NCBI RefSeq assembly: GCF_002886045.1
Contig: NZ_CP025791.1
Location: 2,247,001 to 2,311,000 of the forward strand
Direction of reading: 5' to 3'
Source: Flavivirga eckloniae
Lineage (GTDB): Bacteria > Bacteroidota > Bacteroidia > Flavobacteriales > Flavobacteriaceae
Length of the DNA: 64,000 nucleotides
In this document: piece by piece, positions 502 to 8,437 of the stretch
Layout of the letters: every line of letters starts with the position of its first letter
Numbering within the stretch: the stretch's first letter is position 1
Made by a program: the position numbers and the translations under genes
The notes under the pieces: model-generated
Seen by the model: only the letters and a program-made list of their open reading frames with translations
Told to the model about the DNA's origin: nothing
Databases searched by the model: none

Positions 502-1914
502 TTAGTTAGTTAAAGATTTTCCCATGTAAAAGTCTAAAACTTTTGTCTTAAAAACAAAATTATACTTTGCATTAATCAAGGATGCTTGAGCATTTATTAA
601 TCGATTTCTAATTTGTTCAAAATCAAAAGAATTTATAACTCCCAAGGTATATCGTTCTTGTGCATTTTGCAAAGCATCTTGTTGCAGCTTAACCGATGAT
701 TCTGATGCTAGATATTGGTTTAAAGCCGCTTTAGCATCTGCAAAAGCTTGTTCTATATTAGACCTAAGTGTTTGTTTTTCTTCTTCCAGTCTAAGTTCAC
801 TCTTCTCTCTATTTATTCTAGCTTTACTAACATTGGCTTTATTCTTAAATCTACTAAAAATTGGAATACTGAGACTAAAACCCAAATTATAACCTAAGTT
901 GTCTTCCAACTGCCGTCCAAATCCGTTTGGAACAAATACCAAAACATCGTCGCTGGGATCGTTGGGATCATTTATTTGAACTTCTGGTCTTACATCTCTT
1001 TGCCCCTGGCTATGTTGGTAGGAAGTTCCTGCTCCTGCACTAAAACTTAAAGATGGTAAAAAAGCACTTTTAGAAATTTCAATTGATAAATCCGAATTTT
1101 CTATATCTAAATTTGCTCTTTTTATCTCTGGTCGTTTAGTTTCTGCAACGTTATAAATATCATCCGAATTATTATATGCTATAGCTAGTGACGATACTTC
1201 TAAAAGAACATCTTCAACATCAAATCCTTTATGAGTAATTTGTAATAACTGTGCTAAATTTAATAAAGCCAAGTCTACACTATTTCGAGCATTTACTAAT
1301 CGTTCATTATCTGTTGCAAGTTGTGCCTCAACTTCTAATATTGTAGATCTTGCTCTTACCCCAGATTCAACAAAAGCCTTTGCTTGATTTAATTGTTTTT
1401 GAGTTACCTCTATCTGCTCTAAGGCTATTTTTAAATTTTCCTTGTTAAGCAAAATATTTAAGTAGGCATTGGCTATATTAAGAGACATATTATCGGTTAA
1501 TATATCTAGTTGTATTTGACTAGATTTCAAACCAAGTTTAGATTGCTTATATAAGTTTGTATTTCTAAACCCATTAAATATAGTAACACCAGTCCCTATA
1601 CTAAAGCTATTCCCCCTACTGTCTATAGATATACGTCCTCCATTTTGATCTATAAAAGAGCCAAAATTATAAGTATGTGATGCAGATGCACTAACTGATG
1701 GAAGAAAATTTCCTCTGGCATCTACTACATCTTGCTTTGCTGTTTCTGCATCAAATCTTGCTTGCTTTACAGAGAGGTTATTCTCTATAGCATAATTCAC
1801 ACATTCCTTAAGTGTCCATTTTTTTTCTTGTGCAGATAATGCTAAACCGATTAACAAAAATGCTGATACAAATAAATATCGTTTCATAGCGAGTGGTTTA
1901 ATCTTCTTAATCAT
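502..1914 (-). CDS. TolC family outer membrane efflux protein
   Basis: 470 residues. A signal peptide (MKRYLFVSAFLLIGLALSAQ) is followed by WTLKECVNYAIENNLSVKQA, the usual opening of Bacteroidetes TolC-like outer membrane factors, and then long heptad-rich helices in two homologous halves, as in the OEP family. It should form the outer-membrane and periplasmic channel of the tripartite pump encoded upstream. Its ATG at 1914 overlaps the stop of the adaptor gene (TAATG), suggesting translational coupling. An in-frame ATG at 1887 starts exactly at the classical signal peptide and is the alternative start. It is the last gene of a five-gene operon. Substrate unknown. Confidence 0.93.
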   Translation of the reverse strand: MIKKIKPLAMKRYLFVSAFLLIGLALSAQEKKWTLKECVNYAIENNLSVKQARFDAETAKQDVVDARGNFLPSVSASASHTYNFGSFIDQNGGRISIDSRGNSFSIGTGVTIFNGFRNTNLYKQSKLGLKSSQIQLDILTDNMSLNIANAYLNILLNKENLKIALEQIEVTQKQLNQAKAFVESGVRARSTILEVEAQLATDNERLVNARNSVDLALLNLAQLLQITHKGFDVEDVLLEVSSLAIAYNNSDDIYNVAETKRPEIKRANLDIENSDLSIEISKSAFLPSLSFSAGAGTSYQHSQGQRDVRPEVQINDPNDPSDDVLVFVPNGFGRQLEDNLGYNLGFSLSIPIFSRFKNKANVSKARINREKSELRLEEEKQTLRSNIEQAFADAKAALNQYLASESSVKLQQDALQNAQERYTLGVINSFDFEQIRNRLINAQASLINAKYNFVFKTKVLDFYMGKSLTN

Positions 1915-3044
1915 TAATCTTCTTCGTTTTCTTCATCGTCATCTTCATTATCCTTGGAAGCCTTGTTCCACACCTTAATTTTATCTCCTTCTTTTACTCC
2001 TTCTGTAATTTCGACATTAATACCATCGGATAAACCTATCTTAACATTTTCCTTTTTAAACTTATTATTACCGTTCATAACTTCAACAAAAGGTTTTTCG
2101 GTAATTCTGTTATACTGAAGCAAAGCTTCCCTAATGGCCAAAACACTATCCTTGCTTTCTATTTCTATCTCTGCATTAGCACTATATCCGGCTCTTATAT
2201 TGGTAGTAGAATCTATACTTACATTCGCTTTTATTGTAAACTGAACCGCTCCGTTTTCTTCTTTTCCTTTTGGAGCCACAAAAGTTAACTTAGCAGGAAA
2301 CTCTTTATCGTTAATCGCTCCAAGTATTACTTTTATCTCTTTACCTTCTTCTAGCTTCCCTACCTCGGCTTCATCTACTTTTCCTTCAAAAATCATTAAA
2401 CTCATATCGGCAATGGTAGCAATGGTTGTTCCTGCATTAAAATTATTACTCTGTATTACTTGATCTCCTTCTCTTACCGGAATTTCTAAAATTGTTCCTG
2501 CTATTTGAGCAATAATATTGGTATTTGCTGCACTACCTCCAGAAATAGAGCCTCTTTTAATAATTTGATAATCGTTTTGTGCCTGAGCTAACGATTCTTT
2601 AGTCTGATTGTACGACAGTTCGCTGTTTTCGAAATCCTGAACTGAAATAACACCTTTATCAAATAATGTTTTATTTCGAGTATACAATACTTTGGCATTA
2701 TCGAAAGACAATTTTGCCGAAGCGATTCTACTTTTTGCACTTACCAAACTTTGCTCATTAGGCACGACCCTAATTTTAGCAATAAGATCTCCTTTTTTTA
2801 CAATATCACCTTCTTCAACAAGAATTTCATCTACTATTCCTGAAATTTGGGGCTTCAACTCAATCTCCTCTTCTGGATTCAATTTACCGGTAGCTACTGC
2901 CTTGGTATTTATAGAAGTGTAAAACGGTTCTTCTATTTTGTAATCTACAACATCTTTCGAATTGGCATCTTTAAAGTACTTTAACACCCATGCTAATAGT
3001 ATAATCGCTACTATTATTACAATAATTCTTACTGTCTTGTTCAT
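1914..3044 (-). CDS. HlyD/MacA-like periplasmic adaptor subunit of an ABC efflux pump
   Basis: 376 residues with an N-terminal membrane anchor (about residues 5-22) and then a lipoyl-like half (ATGKLNPEEEIELKPQISGIV, VEEGDIVKKGDLIAKI). A coiled-coil hairpin (about 100-170) is followed by the second lipoyl half (IAGTILEIPVREGDQV) and beta-barrel segments. This is the membrane fusion protein architecture linking inner-membrane permeases to TolC. The C-terminus is highly acidic (NEDDDEENEED), which is unusual for MacA but common in flavobacterial homologues. It sits 12 bp after a permease gene and overlaps tolC by one base. MacA-like is preferred over RND-type because the partners are MacB-type permeases and an ABC ATPase. 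Confidence 0.92.
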   Translation of the reverse strand: MNKTVRIIVIIVAIILLAWVLKYFKDANSKDVVDYKIEEPFYTSINTKAVATGKLNPEEEIELKPQISGIVDEILVEEGDIVKKGDLIAKIRVVPNEQSLVSAKSRIASAKLSFDNAKVLYTRNKTLFDKGVISVQDFENSELSYNQTKESLAQAQNDYQIIKRGSISGGSAANTNIIAQIAGTILEIPVREGDQVIQSNNFNAGTTIATIADMSLMIFEGKVDEAEVGKLEEGKEIKVILGAINDKEFPAKLTFVAPKGKEENGAVQFTIKANVSIDSTTNIRAGYSANAEIEIESKDSVLAIREALLQYNRITEKPFVEVMNGNNKFKKENVKIGLSDGINVEITEGVKEGDKIKVWNKASKDNEDDDEENEED

Positions 3045-3056
3045 TTCTTTGATTGT

Positions 3057-4301
3057 TTATTCTTCTCTTAATGCTTGAATTGGTTTTATGCTTGTGGCTT
3101 TAAATGCCGGAATTAACCCGATTAAAGTCCCTAAAATCACTAATATTATTAAGGCTATAAATACAACAGCTATCGAAACTGAAGCGTTTACAAGAGCTGC
3201 TTCTGTTCCTTGACCATAAATGGCGTCTATTAAAATTAAAATCCATCCTCCTGTTATTATCCCAATTATACCGGCAACTATTGTTATAAAAACTGCTTCT
3301 AAAACTATTTGTCTCTTAATCTCAAAAGGAGTTGCTCCTAAAGCACGTCGTACACCTATTTCTTTGGTACGCTCTTTTATTGTTATAAGTAGTATGTTCC
3401 CAATTGCAAAAACGCCAGCAAACAATGTTGCGATACCGACAAACCAAGTTAAAAATTGCATACCTGTTAAAAACCCTGTTATTTTACCAAACTCCTTACC
3501 TAAATTGAAGCTCCCAAGTGCCCGGTTATCTTTAGGGTGAATTTTATTTAAATTCTTAATCAATAATTTAGCATCGGCTTCTATTTGTTTAATATCATAT
3601 TCTGGTTTTCCTGTTATCATCATCCACCCAATCTGATCTCCCATATTATATATTTGCTGAAATGTTGTAAACGGAATATGCATATCTGTTGTTGGTCCCA
3701 TATTAACATCGCCATTTTTAAAGATCCCAATAACTTTAAAACTCATGCCATTAATTTCTACATATTCCCCAATAGCGTTTTCGTCTTTTTCGAATAATTG
3801 CTTATATGTATCTTCAGACAATAACACTACTTTTTTATCAACATCAATATCATTTTGATTGATAAATCTTCCATGTATTAACTTTTTCTTCTGTACTTGA
3901 TCTAACAACGGATAATCGCCTGCCATTTGAAAGCTTCCCGAAAGGAATTTTCTAACTACTGTTGCTTGATTCTGGCTTCTTGGAACAACAAATTCTATTC
4001 CTTCAACGTTTTCTTCTATTTTTTTTGCATCTGTTAATGATAATCGCACACGTCTACCTTCTTGAAATCCTTTAAAGGGCTTGCTTGTACTTTGCCCCCA
4101 TACAAAAACACTATTGGTTGCAAAATCACCAAACAAACGATTAAAGCTATTTTCTAAACCTCTTGCAGAACCTAATAAAACAATTAAGAGTAAGATTCCC
4201 CACCAAACGCCAACCATGGTTAAAGCCGATCTTAGTTTATTTTTACTAAAACTATCGTAAAGTTCTTGCCATGTATCTCTATCGAATAAAAACTTAAACA
4301 T
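3057..4301 (-). CDS. MacB/FtsX-type ABC transporter permease (second of two)
   Basis: 414 residues: a cytoplasmic N-terminus, one membrane helix (about 25-45), a large extracytoplasmic MacB_PCD domain, then three C-terminal helices with the FtsX signature region ERTKEIGVRRALGATPFEIKRQI. Four-helix MacB-type permeases act as mechanotransmitters and move substrates from the periplasm outward through the adaptor and TolC. It is 1 bp from the first permease gene; the two probably form a heterodimer because the ATPase is a separate protein. Sequence similarity to its neighbour indicates an old duplication. Confidence 0.92.
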   Translation of the reverse strand: MFKFLFDRDTWQELYDSFSKNKLRSALTMVGVWWGILLLIVLLGSARGLENSFNRLFGDFATNSVFVWGQSTSKPFKGFQEGRRVRLSLTDAKKIEENVEGIEFVVPRSQNQATVVRKFLSGSFQMAGDYPLLDQVQKKKLIHGRFINQNDIDVDKKVVLLSEDTYKQLFEKDENAIGEYVEINGMSFKVIGIFKNGDVNMGPTTDMHIPFTTFQQIYNMGDQIGWMMITGKPEYDIKQIEADAKLLIKNLNKIHPKDNRALGSFNLGKEFGKITGFLTGMQFLTWFVGIATLFAGVFAIGNILLITIKERTKEIGVRRALGATPFEIKRQIVLEAVFITIVAGIIGIITGGWILILIDAIYGQGTEAALVNASVSIAVVFIALIILVILGTLIGLIPAFKATSIKPIQALREE

Positions 4302-6226: not shown

Positions 6227-6321
6227 TTCTAGGGGTGATTAATGAAAACTTTTTTATTAAGCTTTACAATTAGACTTCAAAGACAAAGAAATGTTACAAA
6301 AATTGTTCCGAAAAGTTTTTA

Positions 6322-6540
6322 TTATTTATTTAACGTACTGTATTTCTTATAAATGAAATACGCTAATCCTCCCATTAAAATGTACGGAATAGCCATCAGA
6401 TATACAATACCATCATTAATGCCTTCTGCTGCTGTTTGTCCTTCTTCACTTTCTAAAACCGCACGACACATGGCGCATTGGGTATTTCCTTTTAGAAAAA
6501 AGAAAAGAGAAAAGAGAAAAAGGATACTTTTTTGTTTCAT
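6322..6540 (-). CDS. 72-residue CxxC membrane protein of the oxidase cluster, function unknown
   Basis: An N-terminal hydrophobic signal or anchor (MKQKSILFLFSLFFFLKGNTQ) is followed by CAMCRAV (a CxxC pair), a short acidic-polar stretch (LESEEGQTAAEGINDG) and a second membrane helix (VYLMAIPYILMGGLAYFIYKK). The most likely topology places the CxxC loop in the periplasm. It follows the DUF420, SCO and cox genes on the same strand, separated from DUF420 only by the 91-bp repeat array. A role in metal or thiol chemistry for oxidase assembly is inference from the cysteines and the context. It has no family I can name, but codon use and composition look genuine. Confidence 0.7.
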   Translation of the reverse strand: MKQKSILFLFSLFFFLKGNTQCAMCRAVLESEEGQTAAEGINDGIVYLMAIPYILMGGLAYFIYKKYSTLNK

Positions 6541-6554
6541 TTTATAGATTTATT

Positions 6555-7080
6555 GATCCCGCTCTTTAGCGGGATTAATTCAACTAGCTACTTTTAGTTC
6601 GCGGTGCCCGCTCCTAAAAGTAGAGTGAAATATTATTCTTTTTTAGATCCCGCTCTCTAGCGGGATTAATTCAACTAGCTACTTTCAGTTCGCGGTGCCC
6701 GCTCCTAAAAGTAGAGTGAAATATTATTCTTTTTTAGATCCCGCTCTCTAGCGGGATTAATTCAACTAGCTACTTTTAGTTCGCGGTGCCCGCTCCTAAA
6801 AGTAGAGTGAGATAATATTCTTTTTTAGATCCCGCTCTCTAGCGGGATTAATTCAACTAGCTACTTTTAGTTCGCGGTGCCCGCTCCTAAAAGTAGAGTG
6901 AGATAATATTCTTTTTTAGATCCCGCTCTCTAGCGGGATTAATTCAACTAGCTACTTTTAGTTCGCGGTGCCCGCTCCTAAAAGTAGAGTGAGATAATAT
7001 TCTTTTTTAGATCCCGCTCTCTAGCGGGATTAATTCAACTAGCTACTTTTAGTTCGCGGTGCCCGCTCCTAAAAGTAGAG
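6555..7080. repeat. Tandem array of 91-bp units, each with two hairpins (5.8 copies)
   Basis: Units begin with GATCCCGCT at 6555, 6646, 6737, 6828, 6919 and 7010, a period of exactly 91 bp with no length variation; the sixth is cut at 7080, five bases before the DUF420 stop codon. Each unit carries a short hairpin (CCCGCT, four bases, AGCGGG) and a longer one (CTACTTTTAG with CTAAAAGTAG) whose 16-base loop holds an inner GCGG/CCGC stem. Units 1-2 and 3-5 differ in the AT-rich linker (GAAATATTATTC versus GAGATAATATTC). There are no variable spacers, so this is not CRISPR. It occupies the whole gap between two minus-strand genes and would be transcribed as an RNA of about a dozen stem-loops. 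Confidence 0.95.
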
Positions 7081-7085
7081 TTTCA

Positions 7086-7619
7086 TTAATAGTACGGAGA
7101 AATCATAATATAAACTACAACTCCGGTAACGGCAACATATAGCCATAACGGATAGGTTATTTTCGCTATTTTTTTATGTTTTTCTATATTGTTTGTTATA
7201 CCTCTAACGTATGTAATAAGCACAAACGGAATAACTACAATCGATAATAAAATATGCGTTAGCAGTATAAAGTAGTAAACATATTTAATAGCTCCTTCTC
7301 CTCCGTACTTTGTAGAATCGCTCGTCATATGATAAGCTACATACATAGCCAGAAACGATACTGAAAGCATAATAGCCAATTTCATTAACTTCTCATGTGT
7401 TGTCCTGTTCCCTTTTTTAATTTGAAAAACTGCCAACACTAAAACCAATGCTGTTATACCGTTTACAGTCGCGTAAATCGGTGGTAAAAAGGTTAATGGT
7501 TCTACATTCGGAATTTTAATTCCAAATAAAACGGCCACCACTACTGGTATTAATATCGACAATGCAACGATTAGTTTATTGTATTTTTTTTCGTCTGCTA
7601 TGTTTGTGTTTTCAATCAT
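7086..7619 (-). CDS. DUF420 membrane protein (CtaM-like oxidase assembly factor)
   Basis: 177 residues with about five predicted membrane helices (near 15-33, 45-65, 82-100, 115-138 and 155-173) and conserved histidines on helices (TTHEKLMKLA, YVAYHMT, LLTHILLS). This matches the DUF420 family, which in Gram-positives includes CtaM, needed for maturation of heme-copper oxidases. It lies directly after an SCO gene in the oxidase accessory cluster, which supports an assembly role. The exact function in Bacteroidetes is inferred, not shown. Confidence 0.85.
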   Translation of the reverse strand: MIENTNIADEKKYNKLIVALSILIPVVVAVLFGIKIPNVEPLTFLPPIYATVNGITALVLVLAVFQIKKGNRTTHEKLMKLAIMLSVSFLAMYVAYHMTSDSTKYGGEGAIKYVYYFILLTHILLSIVVIPFVLITYVRGITNNIEKHKKIAKITYPLWLYVAVTGVVVYIMISPYY

Positions 7620-7644
7620 AAGTATTCTTTATAATAGATTCTTT

Positions 7645-7672
7645 GCTTACTTCGGCTAGGCTCAGTACAGGT
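7645..7672. repeat. Left arm of a perfect 28-bp inverted repeat flanking the SCO gene
   Basis: The 28 bases at 7645-7672 are the exact reverse complement of 8482-8509. The core contains TTCGGCTAGGCTCAGTACAG. Each arm is part of a longer intergenic element that resembles the dispersed family seen elsewhere (here followed by CTGAATGACA). The arms lie just outside both ends of the SCO gene. Confidence 0.9.
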
Positions 7673-7690
7673 CACTCTGAATGACACCGA

Positions 7691-8437
7691 TTATTCGTTA
7701 AGTAATTTCTTTATATCTTCTTTTAATGCACTTATTTCCTCCTTTACACCATCGTCATCCATTTGTTCTTCCTCAGAAATGATACCCTTGTAATAAATAA
7801 TCGGATTACCAAAATCATCTTTTCTTGACCTAATGTATCCGTTCTTATCAATTAAAGCGAAGTTGCCTGAATGCTCAAAGCCTCCTGCGGCATCCTCTTC
7901 CTCTCCTGTATATAAGTTGAACCCTTGGTTCGACAGTTTGTAAATAGTTTCTTTATCCCCAGTCATTAAATGCCAATTAGGATTCGTTACACCATATTTC
8001 TCTGCATAGGCTTTAAGAATTTCTGGTGTATCATAATCGGGGTTTATCGTAAATGATGCCACACCAAAATCATCAAAACTCTTAAAAGTATTTTGAATTT
8101 GAATGAGATTGGCATTCATTCTCGGACAAATCGTAGGGCATGTTGTAAAAAAGAATTCTATAACAAACACCTTTCCTTCGTAGTCTTTATTGCTTATGGT
8201 TTTACCATCTTGATTTGTAAAGGAAAAGGCTGGTACTTTTTTTGGCTCACCGTTTATTTCTATAAAGGCTAAATCTGATAACGCCGATTTTTTATCATCC
8301 GTGAAATCACTTCTGCTTTCTTTTCTGGTAATATCTTTGTTGGAAATTCTATCTACAATTCTTGGTATAAAAATAATACCGAAAACCAGAATAATGAATG
8401 CTATTCCTATATATGAATAATTCGTTTTTTTACTCAT
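7691..8437 (-). CDS. SCO family copper chaperone for cytochrome oxidase (SCO1/SenC)
   Basis: 248 residues. An N-terminal membrane anchor (about 8-26) precedes a thioredoxin-fold domain with the copper-binding CxxxC at C100 and C104 (TTCPTICPRMN) and the third ligand histidine at about H189 (GGFEHSGNF). SCO proteins bind copper in the periplasm and help build the CuA centre of oxidase subunit II. All three copper ligands are present, so it should be active. The gene lies between the unknown thioredoxin-like gene and the DUF420 gene. Perfect 28-bp inverted repeats bracket it. Confidence 0.94.
   Translation of the reverse strand: MSKKTNYSYIGIAFIILVFGIIFIPRIVDRISNKDITRKESRSDFTDDKKSALSDLAFIEINGEPKKVPAFSFTNQDGKTISNKDYEGKVFVIEFFFTTCPTICPRMNANLIQIQNTFKSFDDFGVASFTINPDYDTPEILKAYAEKYGVTNPNWHLMTGDKETIYKLSNQGFNLYTGEEEDAAGGFEHSGNFALIDKNGYIRSRKDDFGNPIIYYKGIISEEEQMDDDGVKEEISALKEDIKKLLNE

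Follow-up and report, generated by a model that had tools for sequence, protein, structure and literature searches.

Introduction

Among the described systems closest to the sequence reported here are the REPINs, each of which is an inverted pair of one short palindrome. REPINs are described as small mobile DNA without a gene of its own (PMC3116915). The Bacteroidetes RAYTs of subclass 2.6 are reported to have "atypical secondary structures" that are copied elsewhere in the genome, and IS200/IS605 elements to use the lagging-strand template (PMC6006769). IS608 is reported to insert precisely 3' of a tetranucleotide that is kept in the left flank, and to have subterminal hairpins and a right cleavage site encoded by the element (PMC5934647).

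Here, we describe a tandem array in a window of 64,000 nucleotides of Flavivirga eckloniae (contig NZ_CP025791.1, positions 2,247,001 to 2,311,000), whose genome (G000) is one contig of 5,665,358 bases. The array is a copy of a dispersed, mobile-looking element which is like IS608 in its subterminal hairpins, its insertion 3' of a kept tetranucleotide, its right site within the element and its lagging-strand bias. Unlike IS608, it has no tnpA, its target is TTTA instead of TTAC, and its left end consists of two hairpins with a conserved GA/GA internal loop. Like the REP/RAYT systems, it is a structured repeat dispersed in genomes of Bacteroidetes with RAYTs. It differs from REP sequences in having no GTAG/GTGG foot in alignment A1 and an 81-nt core as compared to a palindrome of 20-40 bp, and from REP/RAYT in lying beside no RAYT of G000, in its length of about 80-200 nt and in its fixed TTTA target. 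It is similar to the REPINs as small mobile DNA without a gene of its own, but it is not an inverted palindrome pair, and its arrays run head to tail in one orientation.

Results

The array between the DUF420 and CxxC genes

The array (6555-7081) was scored by TRF with a period of 91, 5.8 copies, 98% matches and 0% indels (score 1012), and the distance from start to start of its units is 91 x 5. The units are 97-100% identical over their whole length, and a few diagnostic bases tell them apart. Both flanking genes lie on the minus strand, which is also the sense strand of the array (Table 1). The initial annotation had described a 91-bp period without indels and an array that fills the whole gap between the two genes, and both statements agree with the TRF result and with the gene coordinates, respectively; it was also right that the array is not protein-coding and, given the identity of the units and the lack of variable spacers, not a CRISPR. 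Its reading of the near-identity as recent expansion or homogenisation stands as well.

The two hairpins noticed in each unit were found again by folding. On the minus strand, CTACTTTTAG...CTAAAAGTAG forms hairpin A, which encloses a GCGG/CCGC stem, and ATCCCGCT...AGCGGGAT forms hairpin B. Two units folded on both strands gave energies from -25.7 to -33.0 kcal/mol (z from -3.3 to -5.7), which on either strand were matched by none of 200 shuffles. Hairpins A and B are parts of one larger conserved fold, and the complete element is present only in unit 1, with the layout TTAATGAAAC / hairpin A / GTTGAATTAAT / CCCGC hairpin B; the other five units (73-76 bits) are without the basal helix. Unit 1 adjoins DUF420, overlaps the DUF420 stop codon and leads the presumed mRNA.

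Table 1. Features of the array and of its flanking genes (window coordinates).
Feature	Position	Strand	Remarks
DUF420 gene (PF04238)	7086..7619	-	upstream of the array
Unit 1	7009..7089	-	99.5 bits, model 1-81 of 81; sole complete core
Unit 2	6918..6998	-	76.4 bits; hairpins A and B intact, without basal TTAAT/ATTAA helix
Unit 3	6827..6907	-	76.4 bits; like unit 2
Unit 4	6736..6816	-	76.4 bits; like unit 2
Unit 5	6645..6724	-	73.4 bits; hairpin A with one base change
Unit 6	6554..6633	-	73.7 bits; adjoins CxxC start codon, own 3' flank
72-aa CxxC gene	6322..6540	-	downstream of the array

The 72-aa CxxC protein gave no Pfam or NCBIfam match at E 0.001. Rfam gave no match in the window and, at 6300-7700, only scores far below gathering. 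A simple assembly artefact seems unlikely, since the diagnostic bases differ among the units and three relatives carry arrays of other lengths.

A dispersed family with a conserved fold

The initial annotation had treated the element as specific to this locus, which it is not: a covariance model of the unit gave 30 matches at 25 loci in G000 and matches, some of them weak, in 30 of 149 genomes, its own included. Hosts among the matches listed are Arenibacter, Gelidibacter, Dokdonia, Aquimarina, Kordia and Maribacter. The dispersed relatives have in common TTAGTGAAAC, hairpin A, AGTTGAACTAAT, a CCCGC hairpin B and GGGATCT, and this core element measures 81 nt. In an alignment of 18 copies, a compensating change was observed in 15 of 29 pairs and 96.0% of the cells were paired; no shuffle out of 500 matched the paired cells or the covariation score, whereas 89 of the 500 had as many further pair types. 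A GA/GA mismatch within the basal helix is kept in all 18 copies. Among 80 copies from named genomes, 96.5% of the cells were paired (0/500 shuffles as high). The stretches for alignment A2 were fetched by an exact 16-mer, so that conservation of that 16-mer is built in; at least 117 such stretches were taken in, and all 117 were scanned with the covariance model.

This strong covariation would also suit a functional cis-acting structured RNA of Flavobacteriaceae, located between DUF420 and CxxC and involved in processing, stability or regulation, with copy number as a dosage dial and dispersal as a secondary event. We regard this explanation as rather unlikely, and one point against it is a 199-nt subfamily of G000, whose 12 full-length and several shortened copies are dispersed and have unique flanks (the other 11 copies are 80-94% identical to the query, 9 of the 11 at 90% or more). 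The Arenibacter-type copies share the left end but differ in their right half.

Neither viral contigs (exact 42-base pattern) nor plasmids contained a match to the element, and phages gave three matches, at E 7 only. No description of it was found by core-string and topic searches (repeats, flavobacterial RNA) in those parts of the literature that were accessible, a result that leaves its absence unproven; the family is apparently undescribed so far. The unit could have been a fragment of a known transposable element without conservation of structure, as the initial annotation had considered. It does look like a fragment of a mobile element, albeit not one that is known, and conservation of its structure is strong.

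A palindrome like TGTGCTGAACTTGTTTCAG lies beside the RAYT of L189, on its upstream side, and similar palindromes are nested in the hairpin B loop of most copies of the G000 subfamily (L141, L142, L151 and others) and of the last array unit of G009. The same 16-base core is also contained in the repeat of a CRISPR-like array of a Desulfurellaceae MAG (L206, 1-420); this locus was rejected as a family member, the match in a CRISPR array being apparently due to chance.

Insertion site and ends of the element

At L141 and L160, compared with four uninterrupted copies of the host repeat as paralogous empty sites, the element is inserted within another repeat, exactly 3' of a TTTA, and its own end is TTTA. 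The host of these two insertions is a second dispersed repeat family of G000 (L318, L324, L315, L152, L141, L160). At L159, the element is absent in G011; the downstream context differs there and gives no clean right junction.

Flanks were counted over 110 loci, namely 24 of G000 (array omitted) and 86 of named genomes, with the first copy taken from each array; some of these loci belong to one subfamily and are thus not independent. The left flank is TTTA at 57 and TTTT at 22 of the 110. A T-run is present upstream at 64 loci as compared to 10.2% of control points, and a terminator-like hairpin with a T-run lies directly upstream at 27 loci (0.41% of 4180 control points). The element is dispersed and multi-copy, with a conserved double-hairpin left end located 3' of TTTA or a T-run. 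Since many copies lie behind terminators, little transcription of them is expected, which is a further point against a functional RNA.

Full-length copies end in TTTA without inverted repeats. In the alignment of Arenibacter-type copies, the right end is TTTA despite a left flank of ATTA, TTTC, TATA or TTGA (L265, L222, L286, L289) and hence does not represent a target duplication; the right-end search pattern for this type demanded T..A itself, and the alignment is the fairer evidence. In the other type, TTTA was found in 12 of 14 rows, TTCA in one and TTAA in one. Terminal inverted repeats were not found by inspection. Subterminal imperfect hairpins are present on one strand, those of the left end recognised by covariation and that of the right end by inspection. 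Candidate pairs of guide and cleavage site, judged by eye, are TGAAA (in front of hairpin A) with TTTTA and TGAAT (in front of the right hairpin) with ATTTA.

TTTA at both junctions might recall a DDE-type MITE with duplication of a TTTA target, an explanation that we consider very improbable in view of the missing terminal inverted repeats, of a right TTTA that is fixed though the left flank varies and of the orientation bias reported below. The least probable of the explanations considered is an integron-like attC array. The box motif of attC sites is RYYYAAC. Folded ends with AAC..GTT and the occurrence in arrays are reminiscent of such sites, but cassette ORFs are absent between the units and the left box of the element misfits the motif.

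Orientation with respect to replication

According to skew samples, the replication origin of G000 lies at 2.9-3.0 Mb and the terminus somewhere within about 0.1-0.6 Mb. The TTAGTGAAAC strand is on the lagging-strand template at 22 of the 23 loci outside 0.2-0.5 Mb, the copies at 455376 and 469462, near the terminus, being excluded and that at 1243598 being the only one against the fork. This corresponds to p 3e-6 with respect to an expectation of 0.5, and to p 7e-5 with respect to 58.4% leading-strand coding, a value derived from 18 of 20 skew samples. A wider exclusion (0.05-0.5 Mb) left 19 of 20 loci fork-oriented. The same orientation was observed for 8 of 8 copies in G001 (one reverse-overlap match excluded; two of the 8 only 1 kb apart; the copy at 1615796 between samples of opposite skew) and for 12 of 13 in G003, with one copy against the fork (six matches at 1.24 Mb merged; three matches near skew switches and two on contig C2 excluded), some copies being common to genomes. 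All strand-bias figures are hand counts. In only 13 of 24 cases does the nearest upstream ORF point in the same direction as the element. Orientation follows the replication fork, not the neighbouring genes, and a functional RNA would not be expected to track replication in place of transcription.

KOPS and Chi are polar DNA sites linked to replication or recombination. An orientation bias would be consistent with a site of this kind, whose direction is kept by selection, to which we assign a probability as low as that of the DDE-type MITE: only about 25 loci are present in G000, the insertion junction, the expansion of a subfamily and the TTTA target do not fit it, and the bias is already visible within the 199-nt subfamily, where 14 of 15 copies are fork-oriented (hand count).

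The DUF420-CxxC locus across the genus and the growth of arrays

The DUF420 and CxxC genes are adjacent in 12 of 12 genomes of the genus. The element lies between them in 9 and is absent from 3, and its copy number varies between these related species (0, 1, 2, 4, 5 and 6 units): five species carry one unit, G010 two, G009 four, G008 five and G000 six. In the empty genomes (G002, G006 and G007), 13-15 bases separate the last aligned DUF420 codon from the CxxC start, as compared to 2 bases in G017, the outgroup from the family. In the empty species and in G017, DUF420 ends with one more codon (V or I), which the carriers lack; the empty state therefore looks ancestral. A hairpin A sequence common to the nine carriers was not seen at any other locus and argues for one insertion; independent insertions at this site are disfavoured for the same reason. 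The empty species do not form a clade (AU p 1e-6), and presence of the element takes 3 changes on the tree within the genus, or 4 with the outgroup counted as empty. Given this scatter, a single gain would call for several later losses, precise excision or allele exchange. In G001 the hairpin A loop is inverted, and the core of G004 is shorter by 6 bases.

In the arrays of G000, G008 and G009, neighbouring units meet at short shared sequences immediately in front of hairpin A. Arrays were present at 14 of 110 other loci, and several of them break inside or just before hairpin A. These positions suggest slippage near hairpin A as a source of arrays. An Arenibacter array (L220, 5 x 120) has the complete CCTTTTA|TTAGTG junction in its repeats, a pattern to be expected if the TTTA at each right end becomes a new target.

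Conservation and possible role at the locus

Divergence at the DUF420 locus was compared in 8 of the 9 carriers (G001 was left out owing to its inverted loop, and gaps were skipped). It amounts to 0.026 in GTTGAATTAAT and 0.025 in the basal TTAATGAAAC, as compared to 0.51 in the hairpin B loop, which has 4 columns only; the flanking genes diverge by 0.50 at their fourfold sites. That the loop has drifted as far as these sites argues against a late arrival of the element, and the conserved core argues for its use at this locus: with a core so much less diverged than the loop, the old copy may have been put to use there. Regulation of the CxxC gene by the array is possible in the light of this conservation, and so is a role in RNA processing or as a copy-number switch for that gene, as the initial annotation had proposed.

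The same divergence values are an argument in favour of the functional RNA introduced above, together with the position of the element just after the terminator of DUF4293 genes, observed at 7 of 7 loci with such a gene, from 6 groups; most of these loci, however, had been retrieved on account of the element itself. Quasi-palindrome repair or exchange between copies could mimic part of the core conservation. Moreover, 3 of the 12 species are empty at the DUF420 locus, and the loss of 6 bases in G004 speaks against a strict need for the core. Downstream of DUF4293 in L281, two tandem units have very different hairpin A sequences, as if a newer copy had inserted at the terminator before an older one.

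Search for the mobilising enzyme

In G000, the search for an autonomous copy yielded nothing but fragments of the left or the right end. The best of them, in L385, is a right end that directly follows one gene of a duplicated, adjacent and very similar pair (1645-3116; 188 aa each), Crp/Fnr-like as judged by eye.

The Y1 proteins encoded by G000 resemble RAYTs, and the ends of the element were seen with none of them. No copy lies within 5 kb of the Y1/RAYT genes of G000, and the model gave no match at E 1 in the 4 Y1_Tnp loci; three of these genes have other palindromes alongside (by eye). In the copy-rich G046, the element lies 0.2-2.2 kb from 3 of 5 RAYT loci, never as a flanking pair: in L407, a copy (1611-1691) on the opposite strand precedes, by 215 bases, a gene whose start is RAYT-like (1906-3405), and in L408 and L409 copies are 2.1-2.2 kb from two RAYT pairs, just before other genes. 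RAYT matches were found in 22 of 30 carrier genomes and in 32 of 119 others (p 4e-6) and, outside the genus, in 10 of 18 carriers against the same 32 of 119 (p 0.025), kinship being ignored in both comparisons. Some carriers have no RAYT match; G110, with 5 copies, has none at 1e-5. Three RAYT/Y1 queries against 309 loci matched only loci fetched as Y1_Tnp, and no transposase was recognised by eye in the 25 largest ORF clusters near copies. The best lead is that the element may be one of the structures linked to subclass 2.6 RAYTs.

Two kinds of long reading frame were seen along the way. L191 (G000, at about 2.81 Mb) contains, at 1477-2961 on the plus strand, a RAYT-like Y1_Tnp domain and a complete coproporphyrinogen III oxidase in one frame (PF01797 and PF01218). 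Open frames of 495-535 aa with RAYT matches are present in G004, G005, G006, G009, G011 and G046.

Discussion

The array has probably arisen by tandem amplification of one 3'-truncated copy of a structured mobile DNA element of Flavobacteriaceae, which is non-autonomous and moved as a single strand. A TTTA site, ends without inverted repeats and orientation with the fork are hallmarks of single-strand transposition of the IS200/IS605 type. A Y1 enzyme of the HUH type, either IS200/IS605-like or RAYT-like, would mobilise the element in trans, the single-stranded DNA both leaving and entering at the lagging-strand template. At the DUF420 locus, one insertion may have been followed by multiplication that took place later and independently in several lineages, presumably by slippage at the short repeats before hairpin A and then homogenisation. 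The old copy may by now have a function between the two genes, as a structure formed by RNA or DNA, considering that its core was conserved while the loop drifted.

More tentatively, the whole family could be described as single-stranded DNA mobilised in trans, with a GA/GA two-hairpin left end and with TTTA and the T-runs of terminators as targets, of which the oldest copies (DUF420-CxxC and the DUF4293 terminator) would have been domesticated as structured elements, amplified time and again into arrays and made to set the spacing and expression of the next gene.

With these results, an intergenic array becomes a member of a widespread, apparently undescribed family with a testable mechanism of single-strand transposition. 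Its target preference sends the element behind terminators, and a single locus allows insertion, change in copy number and sequence conservation to be traced over 12 species.
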